Below are positions 2,031 to 23,286 of a stretch of 64,000 bases of DNA, piece by piece (the first letter of the stretch is position 1; every line of letters begins with the position of its first letter). The notes beneath the pieces are model-generated. The model saw only the letters and a list, made by a program, of their open reading frames with translations, searched no databases and had not been told where the DNA came from. Both the position numbers and the translations under genes were made by a program. The DNA is from an uncultured Pelagibacteraceae bacterium (GTDB taxonomy: Bacteria > Pseudomonadota > Alphaproteobacteria > Pelagibacterales > Pelagibacteraceae). Location: assembly GCA_902569105.1 (NCBI GenBank), contig CACFTE010000001.1:124001-188000 (forward strand), in the 5' to 3' direction.

Positions 2031-3403
2031 TGGAATATATAAGTACACGAAATAATCAGAGAAACTTTACTTTTAAGGACGTTTTCCTCAAAGGTTTGGC
2101 AGATGATGGGGGACTTTTTGTACCAAAATCAATTATACCATTCAGTAAGGAAGATTTAAACCATCTTAAAAATCTTAGTTATAATGATTTAGCAGCTGAA
2201 ATAATTTATCCATTTATTGGAGATTTCATGCCTAAAGATGAGTTGATATCTATAATATCGAAATCTTACTCAAATTTTAGATCCAATGATGTTGTAAAAA
2301 TCTCTAATTTAGGAAATTTAAAAGTTTTAGAATTGTTTCACGGTCCAACACTCGCATTCAAAGATATTGCTATGCAATTAATTGGTAATTTTTATCAATA
2401 CCATTTAAGACATGATCAAAAAAAAATTAATATAATAGTTGCAACTTCTGGTGATACTGGCGCAGCTGCAATTGATGCATTAAAAGGAAAAGATAATCTA
2501 AATGTGTTTGTATTGCACCCCAACAATAAAATTTCACCGGTGCAAAGAAAATTAATGACAATACATGAAGAGGGCAATGTATTTAATATTGCGATTGAGG
2601 GTAATTTTGATGATTGTCAAAATTTAGTAAAAGCAATGTTTAATGATGAAAAATTTTCCAAAAAAATTAATATGTCAGGCGTTAACTCAATCAACTGGGC
2701 AAGAATTATTGCTCAGACTGTATATTATTTTTATGCTTACTTTAAAGTTGGAAATGGGCAACCACTTTCATTTTCCGTTCCAACAGGAAATTTTGGAGAT
2801 ATTTATGCAGGTTACTTAGGAAAAAAACTAGGTCTACAAATTGACAAATTAATCGTAGCTACAAATAAAAATGATATTCTTCATAGAGCAATATCTGGAG
2901 GTGATTATACTCAAAAGAAAGTTGAGGAGACAAATACACCGAGTATGGATATTCAGATTGCAAGTAACTTTGAAAGACTTTTATATGATGTCAAAGATTG
3001 TAACTCAGAAATTACAAAGGATATTATGAGTAAAATTAAAAATAATAAGTATAAAATAGACAAAAATGATTTAGATAAAATTAAAAAGAATTTTATTTCT
3101 GAGATGCTTGATGAAAATGAAACCCTTGAAATAATAAAAATAGTTAATGATGAATACCAAATAGCAGTTGATCCACACACTGCAGTTGGAATTGGTGCTG
3201 TGAGAAAATTAGGGTTGGAAAATAATTGTGTTGTATTGTCAACTGCTCATCCTTGTAAATTTCCAAAAGCAATTGAAGATGCGATCTCAAAAACTGAAAA
3301 TTTACCAGATAGTCTTAAATATGTTAATGATAGAAAAGAAAAATTTGAAGTTCTTTCAAATGATATTGAAAAAGTTAAAAAATATATAATGAATTCGATA
3401 TGA
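2030..3403 (+). CDS. thrC: Threonine synthase
   Basis: PLP enzyme converting O-phosphohomoserine to threonine, the last step of threonine synthesis. The 457-residue protein is the long form common in proteobacteria. The PLP lysine is K111 in GPTLAFKDIAMQ, and the phosphate-binding loop ATSGDTGAAA lies near residues 139-148. A GNFGDIYAGY block near residue 255 and the C-terminal HPCKFPKA block are also characteristic. It is joined by one-base and ATGA overlaps to SURF1 upstream and the peroxiredoxin downstream. The partner kinase thrB is not here but about 4.4 kb away on the other strand. Confidence 0.97.
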   Translation: MEYISTRNNQRNFTFKDVFLKGLADDGGLFVPKSIIPFSKEDLNHLKNLSYNDLAAEIIYPFIGDFMPKDELISIISKSYSNFRSNDVVKISNLGNLKVLELFHGPTLAFKDIAMQLIGNFYQYHLRHDQKKINIIVATSGDTGAAAIDALKGKDNLNVFVLHPNNKISPVQRKLMTIHEEGNVFNIAIEGNFDDCQNLVKAMFNDEKFSKKINMSGVNSINWARIIAQTVYYFYAYFKVGNGQPLSFSVPTGNFGDIYAGYLGKKLGLQIDKLIVATNKNDILHRAISGGDYTQKKVEETNTPSMDIQIASNFERLLYDVKDCNSEITKDIMSKIKNNKYKIDKNDLDKIKKNFISEMLDENETLEIIKIVNDEYQIAVDPHTAVGIGAVRKLGLENNCVVLSTAHPCKFPKAIEDAISKTENLPDSLKYVNDRKEKFEVLSNDIEKVKKYIMNSI

Positions 3404-3885
3404 AACTTAAAATAAAAGATCAACTACCAGATACAGAAATTTTTCAACTAATTGATGGAGAGCCTCAAAAAAGTAAATTAAGAGAAACTATTGGTAATGG
3501 AAAAGTTGTTTTGTTTGGTTTACCAGGGGCATTTACATCAACTTGCTCTAAACTTCACCTGCCAGGTTTTGTAGCAAATGCAGATAAAATAAAAGAAAAA
3601 GGAATAGCAAATATATTTTGTTTATCAGTAAATGACCCTTATGTAATGAGTGCTTGGGGAGAGGTAAATAATTCAGGAGATAAAATTAAAATGTTATCAG
3701 ATCCTTATTTGTTATTTACGAGAGCTATTGGAGCAGAAGTTGATAGAAATTCTAAAGGAATGGGTATCAGATCAAATCGTTATGCAATGGTTATTGAAAA
3801 CTTTGAAGTTGTAAATATTCAAGTTGAAAAGGAAACCAAACAATGTGGTCTAACTTCAGCGGAAGGTATTTTAGAGATACTTTAA
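3400..3885 (+). CDS. Peroxiredoxin (Prx5/AhpE-like type)
   Basis: Thiol peroxidase reducing hydrogen peroxide and organic peroxides in the cytosol. The peroxidatic Cys is C49 inside PGAFTSTCSKLHLPGF, the Prx5-type signature. C149 in KQCGLTSAEG is the likely resolving Cys of an atypical two-Cys enzyme, and C74 is a further candidate. The length, 161 residues, is normal. It overlaps thrC by ATGA. In several alphaproteobacteria I recall a peroxiredoxin lying beside rnhA-thrB-ispH; here those genes lie convergent about 3.5 kb downstream with accessory genes between. Confidence 0.93.
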   Translation: MKLKIKDQLPDTEIFQLIDGEPQKSKLRETIGNGKVVLFGLPGAFTSTCSKLHLPGFVANADKIKEKGIANIFCLSVNDPYVMSAWGEVNNSGDKIKMLSDPYLLFTRAIGAEVDRNSKGMGIRSNRYAMVIENFEVVNIQVEKETKQCGLTSAEGILEIL

Positions 3886-3891
3886 TAAATA

Positions 3892-4374
3892 ATGGCACTA
3901 GGTGATATTTTCAAATCTAAAAAAGACTTTAAAAATCATGAAATAAGAAATTTTGACAATTTGATATCTAATTTACATAATCTAACGAAGCATAAGTTTG
4001 AATTAATTCGTAAATCTATAAACAAAATTACAACAAGAAACTGTGCAACAGAAGAGTTAAGCTATCATTTTAAACTTAAAAAAGATTATGCATATATAGA
4101 AATTGAGAAAAATTATTTTAAAAATGAGGAAGAATCAGGCATGGAAACCTTTGATTGGAACCAGATACATTACTTAAATCTAAATCCAGAAAGTGAATAT
4201 CCAGTATTTAAATATCTAATGAGTTTTAAACGACAAAAAAATAGAAAGGTTGGGTATGAAACCATAGGAGCACTTCATTTCAATCTTGATCCAGAAAAAT
4301 TAATTTTTGAAAAGAACTTTGAAATAAAGTTAAAAAAATCAATGAAAAAATGGGTAAATAAAACATTTAAATGA
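3892..4374 (+). CDS. Unrecognised 160-residue protein
   Basis: I do not recognise this protein. It has no signal peptide or membrane helix and is highly charged, with many Lys, Glu and Asn residues and two Trp residues. A short N-terminal MALGDIFKSKKDF segment is followed by a predicted mixed alpha/beta region. The start is six bases after the peroxiredoxin stop and its stop overlaps the MORN gene as ATGA. It is therefore probably co-transcribed with both and may work with the MORN-repeat protein. Codon and base usage look like the neighbours, so recent transfer is not evident from composition. Confidence 0.75.
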   Translation: MALGDIFKSKKDFKNHEIRNFDNLISNLHNLTKHKFELIRKSINKITTRNCATEELSYHFKLKKDYAYIEIEKNYFKNEEESGMETFDWNQIHYLNLNPESEYPVFKYLMSFKRQKNRKVGYETIGALHFNLDPEKLIFEKNFEIKLKKSMKKWVNKTFK

Positions 4375-5213
4375 AGATTAAAAATTTTGACAATGTAATT
4401 ATCCTAAGACCTAAAAAATCGTATTTTAATGATGGTTCAAGATTTGAAGGTCAGTCAAATCAAATCAACAAATCAAAACTTCCTGATGGTTATGGTAAAT
4501 TATATTATCCAAATGGTCATATTCAATATAAAGGAAACTTTAAAAATGGTGAGTTTAATGGATACGGGGAATACATTTCACCAAACCATTATGAATATTT
4601 AGGAGATTTTAAAAAAAATAAAATGCATGGAAATGGAAAAATTATTTGGAAAGATGATAAATCCTCATTTAAAGGCATTTTTAAAAATAATAAAGTTATC
4701 AAGGGAGAGTATTTATTTTCAAATGGTAACAAATTTATTGGATTAATAAAGAACAACAAACTTTATATTGGCAAATATATAGACAAAGAAATTCAAAGAA
4801 GTTTCGACGGAGTATTTATAAATAATGACTATTTAAAAGGCACGATTATATTTCCAAACGGAGATAAGTTTAAAGGAACTTTTAGGAAAAATGAGCCCTA
4901 TAAATCTGGTAAGTGGATTCTTGCAAATGGAAATACTTATAAGGGTGAATTTAAACATGTAAAAAAAAGCAATAATGAAATAACATTTTTATGGCATGGA
5001 GATGGTCTTTATGAAACTAAGCAATTTTATTATCGAGGATCTTTCAAAAATCAAATGTTTCATGGATGGGGTGTGTTAAAGCATAAAACAAAGGAGAGAT
5101 TTGTTGGCAAATTTAAAAACAATAAAATGTACGATGGTGTTTATAAAGACGCTAAAAACGGTTTGTACGTTATTGAAAAATTTAAAGTAAAATCTCGTAC
5201 ACCTGACGTATAA
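4371..5213 (+). CDS. MORN-repeat protein
   Basis: The 280-residue protein is built almost wholly of MORN-like repeats of about 23 residues, with recurring YxGxFKNxxxxGxG cores (for example YKGNFKNGEFNGYG, YLGDFKKNKMHGNG, and YRGSFKNQMFHGWG near the C-terminus). MORN repeats form elongated beta-sheet scaffolds; bacterial members are mostly of unknown function. There is no signal peptide or membrane segment, so a cytosolic location is likely. It is translationally coupled to the unrecognised gene upstream and is the last gene of the rightward cox-thrC run. Several central repeats are degenerate. Confidence 0.88.
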   Translation: MKIKNFDNVIILRPKKSYFNDGSRFEGQSNQINKSKLPDGYGKLYYPNGHIQYKGNFKNGEFNGYGEYISPNHYEYLGDFKKNKMHGNGKIIWKDDKSSFKGIFKNNKVIKGEYLFSNGNKFIGLIKNNKLYIGKYIDKEIQRSFDGVFINNDYLKGTIIFPNGDKFKGTFRKNEPYKSGKWILANGNTYKGEFKHVKKSNNEITFLWHGDGLYETKQFYYRGSFKNQMFHGWGVLKHKTKERFVGKFKNNKMYDGVYKDAKNGLYVIEKFKVKSRTPDV

Positions 5214-5269
5214 CGAGGTTGTATTTTTTAAATAACGTTGATACTGCAAACTAAATTAATAAATGAGAA

Positions 5270-5290
5270 GGGGCGTTCTGTTGCCCGGCA
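5270..5290 (+). repeat. GGGGCGTTCTGTTGCC repeat, copy A (variant)
   Basis: The first 16 bases, GGGGCGTTCTGTTGCC, are identical to two further copies near 6651 and 7332, then the sequence diverges (CGGCA instead of AGGTG). In this copy GGGC and GCCC can pair around an eight-base loop. It lies in the 199-base gap between the convergent MORN and glycosidase-like genes, and all three copies have the same orientation. The rest of the gap holds no gene that I can support. Confidence 0.8.
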
Positions 5291-5331
5291 TTAAATAAGA
5301 AAATAGCATATTTGCTCACTTAATCAAAACA

Positions 5332-5403
5332 CTTCATTGCTAACTTCATTGTCAGAATGACTTATTTTCTTTTTAGTTGGTTTTTTGATCTAACACTTCA
5401 TTG
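5332..5403. repeat. Three CTTCATTG short direct repeats
   Basis: CTTCATTG occurs at 5332-5339, 5344-5351 and 5396-5403, the first and third within the longer ACACTTCATTG. They lie between repeat copy A and the 3' end of the glycosidase-like gene. In sequence this AT-rich, 8-mers recur by chance, and no function is evident. Confidence 0.45.
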
Positions 5404-5412
5404 TAAATTTGA

Positions 5413-6642
5413 TTAAAATTTTTCAAATACACCCTCAAAAGATTTTACTAATACTTCCTTTTTATCAAATTTAATTAGATAATTATTTTTAGTTATGTTG
5501 TAGACAATTACACCTTTCTCATGCAGTTTAAATGCAAGACCATCTACGATTTCAGTTTTTAAACTTGTTGGTTTGCCTAAATCTATTTTATAAAAATCAT
5601 AAATCTCATGATAATGATCATGTTCAGGGTTATCTCTGTTATTATCTCCATAAAGAATATATCCATTTTCAGGTATCACCATTGCCATTGCTGTAAAAAG
5701 TTTTGCAAATCGAATATTTTCGGGAGAACTTCTATAATTCTTTATCCAATAGTTTTTATCGAATTTTTTAATATCAATTTCTTTACCAAATATTTTTTTA
5801 GTAAGTTCTTTCTCTTTTTCTTTGGGTGGATTTTTTGCAATCTTCCACACATTTACAGCAACTAATCTTGGATAAGATAGATGTTTGTCATGAAACTCAA
5901 TTATACTTGCAATATCTTTTATTTGCTTACAAGTATAACCACTTCTTGTTTTTTTCCATAATTCTAAAAAAACTCCATTTATAAATTCATGAGTATCTTT
6001 TTGTTTTTCCCAATTTATGTTTCCCAATATAATAAAATCTTTACCCATTTCTTCTCTGATTGATTTAGAAATTTTGTATCTATACTTCTTAACTGTGGAA
6101 CTAGACTTACCACCATAATATGAGTGATTATCATTACGCCAGAGATCAAAAATAATTCCATCAAGATCTCCTGCACGTGATTTGACAAGTTGTGTTATAT
6201 AATCCAAAAAATCTGGATGAGTATAATCAACATTTAAGGTTCTCCCATACTCTTGCCACGCTTTATCACCCCATTTTGATTTAAGCGCAAATTTTTCCAT
6301 CCCAACTTGATTAGAGTAATTTTGATCAGGATAAGTATATGCCCAATATATTTCTCTTAAACTTAAATGAGTAGAAGTTGGGGGCGTAACGTTTTGAGCA
6401 CCCCAACCAAGACCATAATTTTTAGACCCTAAATCCCAAGTTCTCCATGCTCTAAATAGATTTATCGTTTTTCGATTTGCTAAAACAGAGTCAATTCTGT
6501 TACCAGAATTTTCTCTTAAGTATTCTATTGCTTTAGGGGCAACAATTTCTTTAATTTTTTGATTATCTTTGACTTTGCAAGTTGCTGCATTTAATTGAGA
6601 ACTGATACTTAAAAAAAATAATATTAATAAAATTTTCCTCAT
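5413..6642 (-). CDS. Secreted glycoside-hydrolase-like protein (TIM-barrel, putative)
   Basis: A 409-residue protein beginning MRKILLILFFLSISSQLNAATC, a clear signal peptide, which sets this start; the frame is open 59 codons further upstream but runs through a structured repeat and lacks protein character. The mature part has motifs like extracellular glycosidases of the TM1410/GH114 or hypothetical GHL15 type: DYTHPDFLDYI, then LDGIIFDLWRND near residue 165, ILGNINW and FLELW on later strands. The acidic residues of FDLWRND and FLELW are candidate catalytic positions. Exact family and substrate are uncertain. It is isolated, convergent with the MORN gene, and a GC-rich hairpin repeat begins nine bases before its ATG. 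Confidence 0.75.
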   Translation of the reverse strand: MRKILLILFFLSISSQLNAATCKVKDNQKIKEIVAPKAIEYLRENSGNRIDSVLANRKTINLFRAWRTWDLGSKNYGLGWGAQNVTPPTSTHLSLREIYWAYTYPDQNYSNQVGMEKFALKSKWGDKAWQEYGRTLNVDYTHPDFLDYITQLVKSRAGDLDGIIFDLWRNDNHSYYGGKSSSTVKKYRYKISKSIREEMGKDFIILGNINWEKQKDTHEFINGVFLELWKKTRSGYTCKQIKDIASIIEFHDKHLSYPRLVAVNVWKIAKNPPKEKEKELTKKIFGKEIDIKKFDKNYWIKNYRSSPENIRFAKLFTAMAMVIPENGYILYGDNNRDNPEHDHYHEIYDFYKIDLGKPTSLKTEIVDGLAFKLHEKGVIVYNITKNNYLIKFDKKEVLVKSFEGVFEKF

Positions 6643-6650
6643 TATAAAAA

Positions 6651-6675
6651 GGGGCGTTCTGTTGCCAGGTGCCCC
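6651..6675 (-). repeat. GGGGCGTTCTGTTGCC repeat, copy B (hairpin in a 5' leader)
   Basis: This 25-base element is identical to copy C and shares its first 16 bases with copy A. GGGGC and GCCCC at its ends can pair, with an inner CTG/CAG pairing around TTGC. Read on the minus strand, the right arm runs into five T residues and then TATAATG, so a terminator-like hairpin sits directly before the start codon of the glycosidase-like gene. That could be an attenuator, an insulator or a recombination scar; sequence alone does not decide. Confidence 0.8.
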
Positions 6676-6733
6676 GAACAAAGTACCATTATTCGCGAAT
6701 AATTTGAATTGAAAAGTGAGATTTTGCAATTCA

Positions 6734-6752
6734 AGTGCGGATATAGTGCGGA
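6734..6752 (+). promoter_or_regulatory. AGTGCGGA direct repeats, candidate operator
   Basis: AGTGCGGA occurs at 6734 and again at 6745, an 11-base period close to one helical turn, 27 bases before the start of the helix-turn-helix-like gene. A one-mismatch copy, AGAGCGGA, lies at 7277-7284 just after that gene. Spacing and GC-rich content in AT-rich DNA suggest a protein-binding site, possibly for the adjacent gene's own product. This is inference. Confidence 0.4.
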
Positions 6753-6778
6753 CAGATTTTTTATGATAAAATTTATCC

Positions 6779-7267
6779 ATGAGTAAATTAACTGATCTGC
6801 CACCTTCAAATAAAAACAAGGGAAATACTAGTCCCGTAAAAACTAAGACGCATATTTATCCAAGAAAAAATAGATGGGGCATAGTTTGGTCCGACACTCC
6901 AGCATCTGGATCTAGGAGAAATATAATAAGTAAAAAACTAGGTGATAAACTAATTGAAGAGTTTAGGGATGGTCAATCAAGCATTCAATTAGAGGAAAAA
7001 TATAAAATAGATAACGATACAATACTGAAATATATAAAAAGTAAGTTACCAACAAATAAATATAACAGTATAACTCGAATTAATTTAATTGATAGTAAAC
7101 TAGGTGATAAACTAATTGAAGAGTTTAGGGATGGTCAATCAAGCATTCAATTAGAGGAAAAATATAAAATAGATAACGATACAATACTGAAATATATAAA
7201 AAGTAAGTTAACGCACCAAGAGTTCGAAGAAAAAAAAAGAGTCAATCAACACGACTTTAATTCTTAA
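6779..7267 (+). CDS. Protein with two identical helix-turn-helix-like units
   Basis: A 162-residue protein with a basic, Pro- and Ser-rich N-terminus (about residues 1-50) followed by two copies of a 38-residue unit starting KLGDKLIEEFRDGQSSIQLE and ending NDTILKYIKSKL. The unit reads like a small trihelical helix-turn-helix: a first helix, a QSSIQLEEKYKI turn-helix, then a recognition-like helix NDTILKYI, as in resolvase or transposase DNA-binding domains. The two copies are identical in DNA as well. I recognise no full-length family. DNA binding is inference. It stands alone between repeat copies B and C. Confidence 0.65.
   Translation: MSKLTDLPPSNKNKGNTSPVKTKTHIYPRKNRWGIVWSDTPASGSRRNIISKKLGDKLIEEFRDGQSSIQLEEKYKIDNDTILKYIKSKLPTNKYNSITRINLIDSKLGDKLIEEFRDGQSSIQLEEKYKIDNDTILKYIKSKLTHQEFEEKKRVNQHDFNS
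6935..7210. repeat. Exact 114-base direct repeat inside the HTH-like gene
   Basis: Bases 6935-7048 and 7097-7210 are identical over 114 positions, separated by a 48-base spacer, for a period of 162 bases (54 codons). The first base beyond either end already differs. No synonymous change has accumulated, which implies a very recent duplication or ongoing gene conversion. The frame is kept, so the protein gains one whole unit. Confidence 0.97.
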
Positions 7268-7331
7268 TGCAGACACAGAGCGGATAGAATTAAATTAACT
7301 TAAATAATTATTGATAAATATAGGATGCTAA

Positions 7332-7356
7332 GGGGCGTTCTGTTGCCAGGTGCCCC
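7332..7356 (-). repeat. GGGGCGTTCTGTTGCC repeat, copy C (hairpin after rnhA)
   Basis: Identical to copy B over 25 bases. It lies two bases beyond the rnhA stop codon, so on the minus strand it forms a GGGGC/GCCCC hairpin right after the last gene of the long leftward run. It could serve as that run's terminator, although only two T residues follow the right arm. Copies B and C bracket the HTH-like gene. Confidence 0.8.
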
Positions 7357-7358
7357 AC

Positions 7359-7781
7359 TTACAAGTTTGCTGCTCTCCTAGCAATTAAATCTACTTCATT
7401 ATTTAATTTATCAGTGGAGTGTGCTTTTACCCAACTCCATTTAATATCAAATTCATTTGCTAGTAAATCTAGCTCTACCCAAAGATCTTTATTTTTAACT
7501 TTTTGTTTACCTGCAGTTTTCCAACCATTTTTTTTCCAATTATTAATCCATTCAGTTATTCCGGACTTAACATATTTAGAATCTGTAAAAATTTGAACTT
7601 TACTACCCTTAGGAATTTTTTTTAATGCTTTAATTGGTGCCAATAATTCCATTTGATTATTTGTTGTATCTTTTTTGCTACCTTTAATCTCAGTTTTTTT
7701 TCCATCATTTATTATTATTGCCGCCCAACCACCTTTGCCTGGGTTTCCTATACATGAACCATCAGTGTATATTTTAATCAT
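7359..7781 (-). CDS. rnhA: Ribonuclease HI
   Basis: Degrades the RNA strand of RNA-DNA hybrids during replication and R-loop removal. The 140-residue protein is slightly shorter than E. coli RNase HI but keeps the catalytic set D7 (IYTDGSC), E45 (NNQMELLA), D67 (FTDSKYV) and D131, plus H121 in WVKAHSTD. The basic GWKTAGKQKVKNKDLW handle region is present. It is the last gene of the ispH-thrB-rnhA block; its start codon overlaps the thrB stop by one base. Confidence 0.97.
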   Translation of the reverse strand: MIKIYTDGSCIGNPGKGGWAAIIINDGKKTEIKGSKKDTTNNQMELLAPIKALKKIPKGSKVQIFTDSKYVKSGITEWINNWKKNGWKTAGKQKVKNKDLWVELDLLANEFDIKWSWVKAHSTDKLNNEVDLIARRAANL

Positions 7782-8749: not shown

Positions 8750-9690
8750 TAATTTAATTTTTTCGGAATTTTAAAAATTATATTTTCTTTTATAATTTCT
8801 ACTTCCTCAATTTCAACTTCATATTTTTCTTTAAGATTGGTAATGAAATTATTTACCAAAATTTCAGGTGCAGATGCACCTGATGATATACCAATGGTGT
8901 TACACTTATCAATTTCCTCAAATGGAGTTGTACTTTCGGAATGAATTAAAGTTGATTTTTCACAACCTGAGTTTTTTGCTACCTCGACTAGTCTGACTGA
9001 ATTTGATGAATTCCTGCTGCCAATAACAAAAAACATTTCGCACATTTTAGCAATATTTTTAACTGCACTTTGTCTATTCGTTGTTGCATAGCAAATATCC
9101 TCTTTTTTTGGTTCTTTTATTTCAGGAAACTTAGTTCTTAACTTATTTATAATATCTTTTGTATCATCTACAGATAAAGTTGTTTGTGTAACATAAGCTA
9201 TATTTTTTTTTGTAGTTTTGTAGTTTTCAACATCTTCAATTGACTCAATTAGGTCTATAGATCCATTCGGTAGTTGACCTATAGTTCCTATAACCTCAGG
9301 ATGATTTTTATGACCAATTAATAAAATATGATTTCCTGCTCTATGTAAGTTTTCAGCTTCTCTATGAACCTTTGATACCAAGGGGCAGGTTGCGTCAACA
9401 TAAGTCATCTTCAAATCCTCAGCTTGTGTTGGAACAGATTTTGGAACACCATGTGCAGAAAATATAACTGGTCTAGTTTTATCTTTAATCTCACTTAGTT
9501 CTTCAACAAAAATAGCTCCAATTTTTTTAAGACTTTCAACCACATGTTTATTATGAACAATTTCGTGCCTTACATAAACAGGTGCACCAAATTTATCGAT
9601 ACTTTTTTTTACTATTTCAATAGCCCTATCTACACCAGCACAAAAGCCCCTAGGTGCAGCCAGTAAAATTTTTATTTTATGCTTGTTCAT
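8749..9690 (-). CDS. ispH: 4-hydroxy-3-methylbut-2-enyl diphosphate reductase
   Basis: Iron-sulfur enzyme making IPP and DMAPP at the end of the MEP pathway. The three cluster cysteines are C17 (APRGFCAGV), C102 (DATCPLVSK) and C200 (DICYATTNRQ). Other family blocks are HNKHVV, SAHGVPKSV and GISSGASAPE. The start chosen is the ATG giving MNKHKIKIL; three codons upstream only a TTG would extend it. It overlaps the end of blh by 14 bases. Lying right after the retinal genes, it supplies isoprenoid precursors for the same pathway. Confidence 0.97.
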   Translation of the reverse strand: MNKHKIKILLAAPRGFCAGVDRAIEIVKKSIDKFGAPVYVRHEIVHNKHVVESLKKIGAIFVEELSEIKDKTRPVIFSAHGVPKSVPTQAEDLKMTYVDATCPLVSKVHREAENLHRAGNHILLIGHKNHPEVIGTIGQLPNGSIDLIESIEDVENYKTTKKNIAYVTQTTLSVDDTKDIINKLRTKFPEIKEPKKEDICYATTNRQSAVKNIAKMCEMFFVIGSRNSSNSVRLVEVAKNSGCEKSTLIHSESTTPFEEIDKCNTIGISSGASAPEILVNNFITNLKEKYEVEIEEVEIIKENIIFKIPKKLN

Positions 9691-10576
9691 ATTTCTCAAT
9701 TAAATATTCCAGCAATATATGTGGAAATGTCAAAGAGGCCAAACCAATAAAGATTACTTTCGAAATGGCACTATCTAAAAAGTAATAATTCTTCAAAAAA
9801 AATAGAAATATCAAGAACAAAATTGCAGTTAAAATAGTCAGAGGCATCGCTTTAATTATAAATTCTTTAAACCCTTTAATAAAATTATTTTTATTAAGTT
9901 CATTTGATAACTTAAAAGAGTGTCTAATTGAATGTAAAAAACAAAAGTATATAGTAAATGCTAGTATTGGGCTTAAAAAATAGTTTAGTAGCAAGATTGA
10001 TATGAAATCCATAATTAAAATTGATTTGATTTCAATTTGTTTATTTGACGAAATAAAAATATTTGCAAAAAAACTAATAATTATAGACAGGCATAAAATT
10101 TCATCTGAAATAAAAAAACTTTGTGAAATATCAAAGTTTAAGTTATTAAAAATCTCCAAAGTTTCAGCTTTGTGAAATAATAAAGGAGCTGTAATTACAA
10201 GTGAACCTTTAAAAAAATATATTAAATCTTGATTTGATCTATAACTTATGAATTCAGTATCCTCTTTTCCAAAATGATAAGATGCTACTATTAAAAAAGC
10301 TAATAATAAAATCTTTGGAAAAAGTAGCCATAAAAAAATTATACTTAACCCTATAAAAATATATAAAATATAAAATGATATAGTAGACTTATAATTAAGT
10401 AATTTTACTAATTTTTGTCCTTTTATATGATCCAAAGCTCCATGTGATATTCCTAGGCTTAATATTAAGAATAAAGAAAAAATAAGTAAGTTATTGTTTT
10501 TCAAATATTCAAAAGCAGATAAAAAAATACACGCGTTAAAAAAAATTAGTGAATGATAGAAATTTATTTTATTCAT
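9677..10576 (-). CDS. blh: Beta-carotene 15,15'-dioxygenase, Brp/Blh family
   Basis: Cleaves beta-carotene to two molecules of retinal, the proteorhodopsin chromophore. The 299-residue protein is almost entirely membrane helices and keeps the family's iron-ligand histidines: SHGALDH near residues 44-50, ASYHFGKED near 97, a third in CFLHSIRHS near 213 and FPHILLEY near the C-terminus. It begins five bases after the crtY stop codon, so the two are probably co-transcribed. No opsin gene is in the window; its presence elsewhere is inferred from this enzyme. Confidence 0.93.
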   Translation of the reverse strand: MNKINFYHSLIFFNACIFLSAFEYLKNNNLLIFSLFLILSLGISHGALDHIKGQKLVKLLNYKSTISFYILYIFIGLSIIFLWLLFPKILLLAFLIVASYHFGKEDTEFISYRSNQDLIYFFKGSLVITAPLLFHKAETLEIFNNLNFDISQSFFISDEILCLSIIISFFANIFISSNKQIEIKSILIMDFISILLLNYFLSPILAFTIYFCFLHSIRHSFKLSNELNKNNFIKGFKEFIIKAMPLTILTAILFLIFLFFLKNYYFLDSAISKVIFIGLASLTFPHILLEYLIEKYEQA

Positions 10577-10581
10577 ATAAA

Positions 10582-11646
10582 TTAAAAAATATTTTTAATA
10601 AAAATCCATTTTGGCATTTTAAAAATTATAGCAAAATCTTCGAAAATATCACTTTTGTTTGATAAAAATTTTATAACCGTTTTAGACGGAGCTTTAAACA
10701 TATTTAAGAATATTTTTGGCATTTTATCTGGATGTTTTTTTAAAACATTTAAAAATACATTATCAAGGAATTCGTATTTTTTTCCAATATGATAAGGTTT
10801 CGAACTTTGTATCTTTTCAATATTGTTTACTATGTATTTACTATGATCTTGTATATTAAGAAATGTATATCCTGTGCTAAGACGAGTCATGCCTCCTGCG
10901 GAACCAATATTAATTTTATTTTTCTCAATTTTATTTATAGGGTAGAATAAAGGAATAGCACCTTCCTCTTCATAATTAATTTTATAATTTTTTATTTTAA
11001 GAGTTTCTTCAATATATTTTTTTAATTGATCATCATAGTCTGTTAATGATTTGTTTTCCATTTTTGATAACCAAGTAGTTTCAATCAAAGCTTTATTTTT
11101 TGTAAACGGCAAGGTATAAAAAAAATGTACGTTATCTCTTTGATCACAATCAAAATCCATTAAGTTAAATATTCTATCATCAAAAGTATTTTTAGATGTT
11201 TCAATTTCTATTCCCTTAAAATGTTGCCAAAGTTTATCTGCATAATCATCCTTGGCAGGTACGCTATTGAATATAATTGAACTATCTAAATTTAATTGAT
11301 CTATACTTTTAAAAAATTCTATATTTTTGTTTTGTCTAATTTTATTTAAAATTTTGTTATAAAATAATCCGCTGTCTATAGTTTGATATGGATAATCTTT
11401 ATTTATAATTTCATAGGATCCTGATTTAGAATTTAAAGAAAAATTATTCCATGTTTTGATTATACAATCATCAAAGTTATGATTATTAATTTTCCAAAAC
11501 GACCATGTTTTATCACGCTTATATTCATCTCTAATTTCAACAATCGCTAATTTTTTATTTTTAATTTTATTATTAATATCTAATTCATAGGCCAAAGATA
11601 AACCTGCACAACCACCACCTAAAATTACATAATCAAATTCTTTCAT
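10582..11646 (-). CDS. crtY: Lycopene beta-cyclase
   Basis: Converts lycopene to beta-carotene. It has the N-terminal dinucleotide-binding fold (DYVILGGGCAGLSLAYEL), the cyclase block DKTWSFW near residue 47 and the later GSAGGMTRLSTGYTF block. At 354 residues it is a little shorter than typical CrtY. The ATG chosen gives MKEFDYVIL; a TTG codon immediately before it is less likely. It overlaps the end of crtB by 14 bases and is followed within five bases by blh. Confidence 0.94.
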   Translation of the reverse strand: MKEFDYVILGGGCAGLSLAYELDINNKIKNKKLAIVEIRDEYKRDKTWSFWKINNHNFDDCIIKTWNNFSLNSKSGSYEIINKDYPYQTIDSGLFYNKILNKIRQNKNIEFFKSIDQLNLDSSIIFNSVPAKDDYADKLWQHFKGIEIETSKNTFDDRIFNLMDFDCDQRDNVHFFYTLPFTKNKALIETTWLSKMENKSLTDYDDQLKKYIEETLKIKNYKINYEEEGAIPLFYPINKIEKNKINIGSAGGMTRLSTGYTFLNIQDHSKYIVNNIEKIQSSKPYHIGKKYEFLDNVFLNVLKKHPDKMPKIFLNMFKAPSKTVIKFLSNKSDIFEDFAIIFKMPKWIFIKNIF

Positions 11647-12523
11647 CAAGATTTACATCCTCGCTTATAATTTCATGCTCCCTTTTTCTTTGATGAGGCT
11701 CTATATTCTTTAAAAAAAGTATCATCAAATCAAATAAAGATAAAAATGTTTGAAATATTTTACCAAAATTATTTACATAAATTTTTCCAGATTTTTCATA
11801 ATTCTCCATATTTCCTTTGTTTAAAATCTTTCTTCCAATCTGCCTATAAACTCTCCTAGCTACAACTATTGCAAATCTATATTTTAATGGAATTTTTTTA
11901 ATAGAACTAAATGAACTTTCATAGAACATATCAGCTAGTTTTAAAGTTGCTTTAATATTCTCAAAGTCTGATATGATATATTGTCTATTCATTTTTTTGT
12001 CTTCAATTACATCTCTCGCTATATTTGTTAGTTGCATAGCAATTCCTAAATCAATAGCTCCCTTCAAACATCTAGTATCATTTACATTTAGTATTTTTGC
12101 CATCATTAAACCAACAGTTCCGGCTACTCTATATGAATATACCAGCAAATCTTTTACTGATCTTAAATGAACTTTTGTTTTTAAATCAGAGCCAACACCT
12201 TCTATTAGATCGTCTAAAATTATTTTTTTGATACTGTTATTATCTGCGATAAAAATCATTTCATTAATAATCGCACTATACTCATATTGATTTATTAATT
12301 TACTGTTACTGTCATCTTGTTCATATGCTGTTTTAAAAAAGTATCTAATTTTATTAAATCTTTCAGTTCTTAATTCTAGACTTATTTTTTCATCTACTAA
12401 ATCGTCTAACACTCTACAAAAGGCATATACTTTGGAGCAATCATAATAAATATTTTTAGGTAAAAAAAAACCAGCCCAGTTAAATGATTTCGCAAAAAGA
12501 GCAAGATAGTTTTTTTCTGTCAT
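11633..12523 (-). CDS. crtB: Phytoene synthase
   Basis: Condenses two geranylgeranyl diphosphates into phytoene, the first committed carotenoid step. Both Asp-rich diphosphate-binding motifs are present: DDLVDE at residues 40-45 and NIARDVIEDKK near 167-177, with the YSYRVAGTVGLMMAKIL helix between them. The 296-residue length is normal. It overlaps crtI by one base and crtY by 14. The GGPP synthase crtE, often in the same cluster, is not in the window. Confidence 0.96.
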   Translation of the reverse strand: MTEKNYLALFAKSFNWAGFFLPKNIYYDCSKVYAFCRVLDDLVDEKISLELRTERFNKIRYFFKTAYEQDDSNSKLINQYEYSAIINEMIFIADNNSIKKIILDDLIEGVGSDLKTKVHLRSVKDLLVYSYRVAGTVGLMMAKILNVNDTRCLKGAIDLGIAMQLTNIARDVIEDKKMNRQYIISDFENIKATLKLADMFYESSFSSIKKIPLKYRFAIVVARRVYRQIGRKILNKGNMENYEKSGKIYVNNFGKIFQTFLSLFDLMILFLKNIEPHQRKREHEIISEDVNLDERI

Positions 12524-13983
12524 TAAATTATTTTATCCAAAACTTTTGCAGACGAAAGAACACCAGGTACACCAGCACCTGGATGCGTGCCAGCACCCAC
12601 AAAGTAAAGTCCGTCATAAATTTCTGATTTATTATGAAATCTAAAGTAAGCAGATTGAGTAAATTTTGGTTGAATTGAAAATCCTGAACCGTATTTGGTA
12701 TTTAGATCTTTTTCAAAATAATCAGGAGTTAAATAAAAGTCTTCAACGATATTTTCTTTTAGTTTAGGCATCAAATCATTTTCCATCTTATCGATAACTA
12801 AATTTTTCATTTTTTCTCCCTCAATCTTCCAATCGATATTAGATTGGTTATTGGGCACTGGAACAAGAACATAAAAACAATCATGACCATCGGGAGCCAT
12901 TGATTTGTCTGTCGCTGATGGTCTGTGCAGGTAGTAACTAATATCACTATTTAATTTTTTATTATCAAAAATATCTTCAAGATGTTCTTTATATTTATTC
13001 CCAAACTTAATTGTATGATGTTCTATATCATCATAAACTTTCTTCGTTCCAAAATAGTATACAAATAATCCCATTGAATATTCCATTCTACTTTTTTTCC
13101 AATTAAATAAAAAAGAATTATTTTTATCATTATTTAATAAGTTGTCATAAACTGCTGGGGGATCTGCATTGCATATAACATAATTTGCATTTATATTTTT
13201 TTTATTATCTAATTCAATGCCTGTGACCTTTTTATTATCTAAAATTATTTTTTTAACTTCATGACCCTTGATAACTTCTATTCCAACTTCATGCATTAAT
13301 TTTTCTAGACCATTTATAATGTTTCCTGTCCCACCCATTGAATAATGTATCCCCCATTTTTTTTCCAAATATAAAATTAATCCATAAATGGATGTTGTTG
13401 TGAATGGATTTCCACCAACTAAGAGTGGATGCATACTTAATATTCTTCTTAATTTTTCATTTTTTATAAATGAGGAAACCAAAGAATAAACTGATTTATA
13501 ACTTTTTAATTTTAACAAAGCTGGTAATTGTTGCATCATGACAAATGGTTTATTAAATGGCACATCAGCAAGTTCAGTAAAACCTTTATCAAAAATTTTT
13601 TTTGTAAAGTTCACTAGTTTTAAATATCCTTCAACATCATCACTATCAATTTTTTCAATTTGATTTTTCATTTCAATTTCATTTCCAGAATAATTAAATT
13701 TAGATTTATCCTCGAATACAAACTGATACCAAGTATTAAGAGGTTGTAGTTTTATGTAATCTTTTGGGTCTTTTTTAAATAATTCAAACAATTCATTTAT
13801 AAGATATGGAGCCGTTATAACTGTTGGCCCACCATCGTATGTGAAACCATTTCTTCTGAACACTCTAGCTCTACCACCAAGGTCATTATGTTTTTCAACT
13901 AAAGTAACATTATGCCCTTTTTCTTTTAGACGAAGAGCTGAGGCTATGCCTCCAAAACCAGAACCTATAATTATTGAATTCAT
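12523..13983 (-). CDS. crtI: Phytoene desaturase
   Basis: FAD enzyme that desaturates phytoene to lycopene. Motifs are the N-terminal Rossmann block IIGSGFGGIASALRL, GGRARVFRRNGFTYDGGPTV, the MGGTGNI block near residue 218, and the C-terminal FVGAGTHPGAGVPGVLSSAKV FAD-binding signature. The 486-residue length fits CrtI. The ATG start (MNSIIIGS) is preferred over a TTG three codons upstream. It starts about 30 bases after the stop of the ATP synthase b gene on the same strand, so read-through from the atp genes is plausible. Confidence 0.96.
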   Translation of the reverse strand: MNSIIIGSGFGGIASALRLKEKGHNVTLVEKHNDLGGRARVFRRNGFTYDGGPTVITAPYLINELFELFKKDPKDYIKLQPLNTWYQFVFEDKSKFNYSGNEIEMKNQIEKIDSDDVEGYLKLVNFTKKIFDKGFTELADVPFNKPFVMMQQLPALLKLKSYKSVYSLVSSFIKNEKLRRILSMHPLLVGGNPFTTTSIYGLILYLEKKWGIHYSMGGTGNIINGLEKLMHEVGIEVIKGHEVKKIILDNKKVTGIELDNKKNINANYVICNADPPAVYDNLLNNDKNNSFLFNWKKSRMEYSMGLFVYYFGTKKVYDDIEHHTIKFGNKYKEHLEDIFDNKKLNSDISYYLHRPSATDKSMAPDGHDCFYVLVPVPNNQSNIDWKIEGEKMKNLVIDKMENDLMPKLKENIVEDFYLTPDYFEKDLNTKYGSGFSIQPKFTQSAYFRFHNKSEIYDGLYFVGAGTHPGAGVPGVLSSAKVLDKII

Positions 13984-14015
13984 ATTATACAAATTTAACC
14001 TATATAAGGTAAATT

Positions 14016-22122: not shown

Positions 22123-23192
22123 GCTTTTGGCCTTAAACGCTCTCTTAGCTCATCAATCGGCTTTAAACTATTTCCAACTTTATAATGCCAATAAGTCCAA
22201 CCATTGCAGCTTTCCGCACCCAATATTTGAGCGGCAACTTTATGAATAGATCCCTCTTTTTGTTTATGCTTTATACTTCCATCAACCATAACTTTTGCAT
22301 AAACTCTTTTCGTTTGGTCATAAATTTCTGTCCCTGGTTTAATTACCCCTAATTCAATTAGTGAACCAAAAGGAACCCTAGGCTTTAATTTATTGTTTTG
22401 GATTGTATCTAAATATTCGTCTTTTATTATTTGGGAATTTTTAATCCTCTTGTTTGCAGCATCAAAATATTTTTTTTCTTTTTCTATTCCAAAATAGGAT
22501 CGACCTAATTTTTTGGAAACCACAGCAGTTGTTCCTGATCCTAAAAACGGATCTAAAATAAAGTCATTTTTATTTGAGGATGCTAGTAATATTCGATGAA
22601 GCAAAGACTCTGGTTTTTGAGTTGAATGAACTTTTATACCATTATCTTTCAATCTCTCTTTTCCATTGCATATTGGCAAATTCCATGTAGATCTCATTTG
22701 CAAATCATCATTGAAAGACTTCATCGATTGATAATTGAATGTATATTTTGATTTTTTAGTTTTTGAAGCCCAAATCAATGTTTCATGAGCATTTGTAAAT
22801 CTGGTGCCTCTGAAGTTTGGCATAGGGTTATTTTTATTCCAGATTACATCATTTAAAATCCAAAAACCCAGATCCTGAATTATCTTGCCTACTCTAAATA
22901 TATTGTGATAGCTGCCTATAACCCAAATAGACCCATCTTTTTTTAATACCCTTTTACATTGTTCTAGCCATTCATAAGTAAACTTGTCATAAGATTTAAA
23001 ACTTTCAAATTGATCCCATCTATCATTCACTGCATTTACTTTTGATCTATCTGGTCTAACCAAGCTGTTTTGTAATTGTAAATTATAGGGCGGGTCTGCA
23101 AAAATTAAATTAAATGTTTCATCAGGAATTTTTTTTAATTCTTTTAGACTATCTCCATTAATAAGTTTATTATGTAAATTTTTAGTTACCAT
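22119..23192 (-). CDS. ccrM: CcrM-type adenine DNA methyltransferase (GANTC)
   Basis: Orphan cell-cycle methyltransferase of alphaproteobacteria that N6-methylates adenine in GANTC. The beta-class layout is present: catalytic motif IV DPPYNLQ at residues 33-39 and SAM motif I DPFLGSGTT at 214-222. The C-terminal specificity domain (about 265-357) with VPFGSLIELGVIKPG and the NGWTYWHY block is the CcrM hallmark. The 357-residue length matches. There is no restriction gene alongside. Its upstream region is rich in GANTC sites, suggesting methylation-state control. Confidence 0.95.
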   Translation of the reverse strand: MVTKNLHNKLINGDSLKELKKIPDETFNLIFADPPYNLQLQNSLVRPDRSKVNAVNDRWDQFESFKSYDKFTYEWLEQCKRVLKKDGSIWVIGSYHNIFRVGKIIQDLGFWILNDVIWNKNNPMPNFRGTRFTNAHETLIWASKTKKSKYTFNYQSMKSFNDDLQMRSTWNLPICNGKERLKDNGIKVHSTQKPESLLHRILLASSNKNDFILDPFLGSGTTAVVSKKLGRSYFGIEKEKKYFDAANKRIKNSQIIKDEYLDTIQNNKLKPRVPFGSLIELGVIKPGTEIYDQTKRVYAKVMVDGSIKHKQKEGSIHKVAAQILGAESCNGWTYWHYKVGNSLKPIDELRERLRPKA

Positions 23193-23209
23193 TTTTTAAA
23201 AAGTAATTA

Positions 23210-23286
23210 GACTCCAGCGTTGATTCTACGTCAACCAGAGATTGAAAAAAATGGACTCTACTTGTTATATGATTTATTTTGGACTC
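23210..23286. promoter_or_regulatory. GANTC cluster upstream of ccrM
   Basis: GACTC at 23210, GATTC at 23222, GACTC at 23254 and GACTC at 23282 place four GANTC sites in 77 bases, spanning the 81-base ccrM/rnhB gap and the last codons of rnhB. These are the presumed target of the CcrM product itself. In Caulobacter, the ccrM promoter region also contains GANTC sites and responds to methylation state, so feedback control is a reasonable inference. Confidence 0.6.

Follow-up and report, generated by a model that had tools for sequence, protein, structure and literature searches.

Cis-mobilizable elements (CIMEs) are att-flanked elements that lack recombination and transfer genes, grow by tandem accretion, and are viewed as deletion products beside autonomous elements. 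In Dehalococcoides, tandem islands at ssrA, the tmRNA gene, are accompanied by 20-bp repeats; about half of them have no integration module, and they have been discussed as cis-mobilizable elements (PMC3146451, PMC2764846). Marine phage satellites, such as tycheposons and PICMIs, encode an integrase of their own (PMC10803314).

The window analyzed here, a stretch of 64,000 nt from a genome of the Pelagibacteraceae (SAR11), contains one ordinary example of a tmRNA-anchored cassette system, located at a secondary attB between the genes of a peroxiredoxin and ribonuclease H (rnhA). SAR11 are the most abundant bacteria of the ocean and combine streamlined genomes and few obvious mobile elements with large pan-genomes. 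In their variable regions, attC sites were looked for without success (PMC2217521), and a literature search covering mostly open-access papers, with bioRxiv preprints outside its scope, returned no description of ssrA-derived arrays in SAR11.

Architecture of the cassette zone in the window

The zone is punctuated by three cores, termed A, B, and C (Table 1). The 16-mer GGGGCGTTCTGTTGCC matches exactly at 5270, 6651, and 7332, each time on the + strand, and no further match exists in the 64,000-nt window with up to three mismatches allowed, where shuffled sequences give 0.05. Cores B and C are identical in 25 of 25 bases; core A has only the left 16 bases in common with them, and its right part reads CGGCATTAA. 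The right-arm type of core A (CGGCATTAG) is seen again in loci L038, L163, L164, L168, L169, L342, and L343 of relatives. A sequence-only reading of the window had described the three same-direction copies, the identity of B and C, and one gene per repeat interval, and these observations stand. The hairpins that it proposed are predicted for B and C, which fold as GGGGC/GCCCC with about −13 to −14 kcal/mol in 51-base stretches; these energies are unexceptional relative to shuffles, and the 51-base stretch of core A does not form that hairpin. Its repeats and intervals are real, and the extent it gave to the zone was too small—the variable zone begins at the peroxiredoxin stop (3885) and also takes in the MORN-repeat gene, to which a cargo gene at this junction in another species (G267, L320) is related.

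Table 1 Positions of genes, cores, and arm-type repeats around the peroxiredoxin–rnhA junction of the window.
Feature	Position	Strand	Description
Peroxiredoxin gene	3400–3885	+	Left flank of the insertion junction
MORN-repeat gene	4371–5213	+	Cargo of a further, left-hand cassette, with no core preserved to the left of the gene
Conserved cassette tail, TTTTTAAATAACGTTGATACTGCAAAC...	5225–5269	+	Precedes core A; many relatives have it to the left of ssrA too
Core A	5270–5294	+	Left arm GGGGCGTTC, overlap TGTTGCC, cassette-type right arm CGGCATTAA
Arm-type repeats, cassette A–B	5331–5403	+	ACTTCATTG at 5331, 5343 (period 12), and 5395
Cargo gene, cassette A–B	5413–6642	−	409-aa exported protein, possibly glycosidase-like
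Core B	6651–6675	+	Same 25 bases as the ssrA 3′ end
Arm-type repeats, cassette B–C	6733–6752	+	AAGTGCGGA (6733) and TAGTGCGGA (6744), period 11, 82 bp from the start of core B
Cargo gene, cassette B–C	6779–7267	+	162-aa protein with internal duplication; HTH-like according to the sequence-only reading
Degenerate arm repeats, B–C tail	7265–7284	+	Two mismatches each; −67 and −56 from core C
Core C	7332–7356	+	Same 25 bases as the ssrA 3′ end; just downstream of the rnhA stop
rnhA (ribonuclease H)	7359–7781	−	Right flank of the junction; 3′ end carries the secondary attB in relatives

For the cargo of cassette A–B, Pfam gives just a weak cellulase-like match below the cut-off (E 0.0097), and a relative of the gene lies in reversed direction at the same junction in G199. 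The longest ORF at this position (5413–6819) runs through core B and thus acquires a false N terminus with the peptide GAPGNRTP; similar ORFs are present in relatives. Where SAR11 gene models contain peptides of the GAPGNRTP type, a tmRNA-end core has been translated, giving a spurious N terminus. No family scores above its cut-off for the cargo of cassette B–C. This gene contains a direct duplication of 129 bp (6920–7048 and 7082–7210, 95% identity), so that the protein has two near-identical HTH-like units. Elsewhere in the window, an Rfam match to the bablM sRNA family is located at 23189–23258 on the − strand (55.5 bits), and beyond ispH lie genes that appear, by reading of the sequence, to be of the carotenoid/retinal-synthesis type (crtI, crtB, crtY, and Blh-like; 9677–13992).

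Origin of the core and its sites in Pelagibacteraceae

The 25-mer of cores B and C is the 3′ end, with the terminal hairpin, of the permuted two-piece tmRNA gene. In eleven complete loci, the motif forms the end of matches to RF01849 (alpha_tmRNA), which score 218–235 bits; a twelfth match is interrupted by a contig end. Among the eleven is the ssrA of the window genome itself (G000:C3:39827-40125), the end of which, on another contig, represents a fourth exact copy. Judged by this sequence match, the cores of the window are displaced copies of the ssrA terminal hairpin. The earlier interpretation as a tRNA T-arm and acceptor 3′ half is wrong, and a tRNA 3′ half is ruled out as the identity of the element because the motif is the end of alpha_tmRNA.

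With up to three mismatches, the motif is present in 255 of 300 genomes of the genus and in 44/44 of the near-complete ones. An initial sample from a different family of the order did not contain it, and ssrA ends there in a variant of its own. In two of about 30 loci of that family (L364 at 3251 and L387 at 2380), a hybrid of the family's own ssrA end, with one arm replaced, lies downstream of ssrA, indicating that elements use ssrA there too. One cassette-end variant was traced in GTDB contigs, and all 37 of 37 stretches belong to records with Pelagibacteraceae or Pelagibacter ubique in the title, except for one titled uncultured Alphaproteobacteria.

Arrays of cassettes without an integrase are widespread in SAR11. 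Many genomes contain extra copies of the core that point in the same direction at distances of 0.2–6 kb, the array often ending at ssrA. The fetched regions comprise 112 distinct intervals with a median length of 857 bp, of which 66 contain one ORF of at least 50 aa, seven contain none, and the rest two to five. The interval ORFs (178 in total, 133 of them read in motif direction) fall into 141 clusters. The cargo includes small exported proteins, DUF805-like proteins, methyltransferases, acetyltransferases, GIY-YIG homing endonucleases, type I and II restriction-modification, and McrB-like proteins. In addition to ssrA and rnhA, recurrent sites are the fabI–pnp interval, the end of the gene of a 68-aa protein (SCPMM), a GNAT/nuclease junction, a 267-aa gene, and a tsaD junction; at the recurrent sites, the orientation of the core is constant relative to the right-hand gene. 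Each genome carries approximately one to seven copies, distributed over about seven sites, and not the thousands of copies at gene ends that the sequence-only reading had named as an argument against its own proposal.

The junction of the window illustrates how such a site is occupied. Peroxiredoxin and rnhA are convergent neighbors, and 99 distinct rnhA loci are available for comparison. Some of these have no site, leaving a peroxiredoxin–rnhA gap of 1–25 bp; about 14 of the 99 represent an empty site with a gap of 37–52 bp and one motif-like copy (13 were scored); others are filled with 0.1–4.8 kb of inserted DNA, mostly bounded by cores. The gene-free version with a single repeat that had been predicted for relatives thus exists, and the genes between copies are not fixed, the content of the junction being different in all of the nearest relatives by rnhA (G095, G301, G199, and G137). 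Together, these observations strongly support the earlier suggestion of an att-site or gene-cassette array and of integration scars of a tRNA-type gene.

At filled sites, the peroxiredoxin-proximal core retains the local left arm (e.g., GGGCAGTTC), and the rnhA-proximal core carries the cassette-type arm. A cassette-type left arm was found in 1/7 peroxiredoxin-proximal versus 17/19 rnhA-proximal cores (Fisher p 0.0008, with shared ancestry not removed). This exchange of arms is the product expected from attB × attP recombination within the overlap.

Arm repeats, probable mobility, and the proposed recombinase

The core has a 9-7-9 layout, in which 9-bp inverted arms flank the 7-bp overlap TGTTGCC. 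Inverted arms around an overlap of 6–8 bp and the exchange of arms agree with the core of a tyrosine integrase. In 47/111 intervals, the core is followed on its right by a direct repeat of 9 bp (at least 8/9 identical), as compared with 1.7 and a maximum of four in shuffles. With right arms of the AGGTGCCCC type, the repeat mostly has a period of 11 and starts at +82–86 or +92–96; with right arms of the CGGCATTAG type and related ones, the period is 12 and the start +56–61. The sequence of the repeat varies by cassette and its position is constant, the positions being approximately whole helical turns apart. In 23/48 cases, the tail of the interval contains its 9-mer again, versus 4.8% for the arms of other cassettes; the tail copy mostly lies about 55, 66, and 77 bp before the next core. 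The same arm-type sequence is thus found on either side of the core in helical phase (+61 or +83/+94 and −55/−66/−77). In the window, the tail positions of cassette B–C fit its own arm pair, with 0/46 arms of other cassettes fitting; the tail of cassette A–B, which is coding sequence, has no matching arm repeat. Clear arm repeats exist in about half of the intervals and many tails have no match, so that many cassettes may be decayed.

A circularised tail–core–leader would be built like a lambda-like attP. In the same genus, elements that sit at tRNA genes and encode an integrase possess 9-bp repeats with the same period of 11 or 12 bp, which supports the assignment of the repeats as integrase arm sites. 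A role as promoter elements is disfavored since the distance from the core is held even where the gene is reversed (A–B of the window) and the repeats are present at both ends. In two pairs of loci (L059 at 8870 and L452 at 6706; L340 at 1840 and L445 at 8425), the same cargo is shared with 93–95% nucleotide identity, the match beginning at approximately +100 to +115. The cargo matches and the arm-repeat leaders differ; hence, the labels seem to be exchanged independently of the cargo.

Cassettes bounded by cores recur at different sites in different species. G025 (ssrA array) and G090 (rnhA site) share one over 636/636 bp (99.5% identity), G273 (rnhA site) and G440 (a different site) share one over 1026/1026 bp (99.8%), and a third, present at an ssrA site and at an rnhA site, matches over 220/220 bp (95.5%). 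The G025/G090 pair agrees fully in the inner arms, and its outer right arm depends on the site; in the G273/G440 pair, it is the outer left arm that differs. The overlap of extra copies tracks the ssrA variant of the host, with 7/8 extra copies in TGTTACC hosts against 3/65 in TGTTGCC hosts (p 6e-7, shared ancestry not removed) and G544 as an exception to the rule. Cassettes probably still move.

In agreement with the earlier statement that no recombinase is present locally, a profile search of 177 loci surrounding cores or rnhA sites, 1.95 Mb in total, detected no tyrosine integrase; the profile was positive in 9/9 control loci, some of which had supplied it. An integrase with an arm-binding domain that acts on the site is therefore not among these loci and may be encoded elsewhere. 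The leading Pfam, PHROG, and PADLOC families of the cargo, up to 25 per list, include no recombinase, and the leading Pfam families no serine recombinase; the profile search is the sharper test. PF13356 occurs in 3/399 genomes of relatives and PF00589 in 61 genomes of the genus, in which most matches are as long as one Xer protein; the single-cell genomes searched are incomplete. The fetched regions around non-Xer integrases hold no core, and several adjoin tRNA genes. Neither around cores nor among the integrases of relatives was an autonomous partner element or helper found. Hence, the recombinase family is read from the site only, and the integrase would act in trans.

Two-piece tmRNA genes on phages are already known (PMC9004378). 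Marine viral contigs in IMG/VR (L143, L145–L147, L149–L152) carry apparently whole genes of this kind that end in the SAR11 25-mer. A phage origin of the core was rejected because the IMG/VR matches to the 25-mer are complete phage-borne tmRNA genes and the other matches are due to chance; the IMG/VR records with the motif contain no attP and no integrase. INPHARED yielded nothing meaningful, and a loose viral scan with NN in the overlap returned mostly unrelated matches.

The most probable reading is that the 25-mer is a tyrosine-integrase core derived from the ssrA end, at which integrase-less cassettes integrate and build arrays by means of a lambda-like integrase provided in trans. A cassette would consist of a P′ arm region, one to a few cargo genes, and a P arm region, without an integrase, and would circularise as a P–core–P′ attP. 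Its target could then be ssrA, a core that is already in place, or any of about six secondary attB sites, which lie at gene 3′ ends; repeated integration would create same-direction arrays, and every integration would regenerate the hairpin at the gene end. The lambda-like tyrosine integrase would be supplied by another element, such as a phage or satellite. The ssrA identity, the same-direction arrays, the empty and filled sites, the arm exchange, the paired private arms, and the near-identical cassettes are direct in the sequence, and from them we infer the integrase step and the movement. A more tentative extension, possible at somewhat below even chances, is a family-wide cassette system apart from integrons, in which the private 9-bp arm pairs serve as address labels for different trans-acting tyrosine integrases. 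If true, one docking site would serve many helpers, and labels would be swapped independently of cargo.

As an alternative, the cores may be scars of autonomous prophages or ICE-like elements with different integrases that hit ssrA and the secondary sites and then lost most genes, leaving immobile arrays that change only by deletion and homologous exchange. The lack of an integrase near any core, the many degenerate cores, and the missing arms would agree with this. It is nevertheless unlikely, given full-length cassettes with 99.5–99.8% identity at different sites in different species, private arms retained at both ends, and no sighting of intermediate elements that retain an integrase. Considerably less probable is that cassettes spread when conserved tails and leaders recombine homologously following DNA uptake or transduction, with the core as no more than a conserved terminator: tails and leaders are indeed common to cassettes, and cargo can persist while leaders differ, but the arms are exchanged inside the 25-bp core, cassettes at unrelated sites share the core alone, and the phased private arm repeats are left unexplained. 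An integron with attC-like sites recombined by IntI would account for one gene per folding repeat and for same-direction arrays of small uncharacterised proteins. Its probability is very low, as the core lacks a GTTRRRY box by inspection, the private phased arms are a lambda-like feature, no integrase lies beside the array, and a search for attC in the variable regions of SAR11 was unsuccessful (PMC2217521). A dispersed terminator or REP-like hairpin without a role in recombination would fold and sit at gene 3′ ends as the core does, yet it has next to no probability in view of just about one to seven copies per genome, the identity to the ssrA end, and the variable gene content between copies.

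Significance and comparison with known systems

The cassette arrays offer a concrete and testable way for SAR11 to gain genes, in which the tmRNA gene and a small number of further gene ends provide a fixed attB, and exported proteins, restriction-modification, and other defence genes are the cargo. The arrays look like an important gene-swapping route in SAR11. The core is a landmark short enough to be searched for in any metagenome, and it raises the sharp question of which integrase reads the private arm repeats.

Of the known kinds, the islands of Dehalococcoides and CIMEs come nearest. The Dehalococcoides islands likewise follow one another downstream of ssrA, are delimited by direct repeats of its 3′ end, and belong to a streamlined genome. 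Of those islands, 16/31 have a serine recombinase (DsiB) module, and the repeats lie within 100 kb of ssrA. In SAR11, by contrast, the sites look tyrosine-type, no interval contains an integrase, most intervals hold one gene, and several other gene ends act as attB. With CIMEs, the SAR11 cassettes share att sites at both ends, tandem stacking, and the lack of integrase and transfer genes; they differ in carrying their own paired arms and in that no autonomous partner was seen. Phage satellites are likewise small marine integrative elements with variable cargo that includes defence genes, but the SAR11 cassettes have no integrase of their own. Integron cassettes are similar in being mostly one gene long, in their same-direction arrays and folding repeat, and in their variable cargo. 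The SAR11 core is, however, of a double-strand type with phased arms; it shows no attC boxes (no GTTRRRY in the core), no IntI or other integrase was found near the arrays, and ssrA is the main docking site. The one-gene cassettes, the private arm labels, the several attB sites, and the missing integrase set this system apart from those known.
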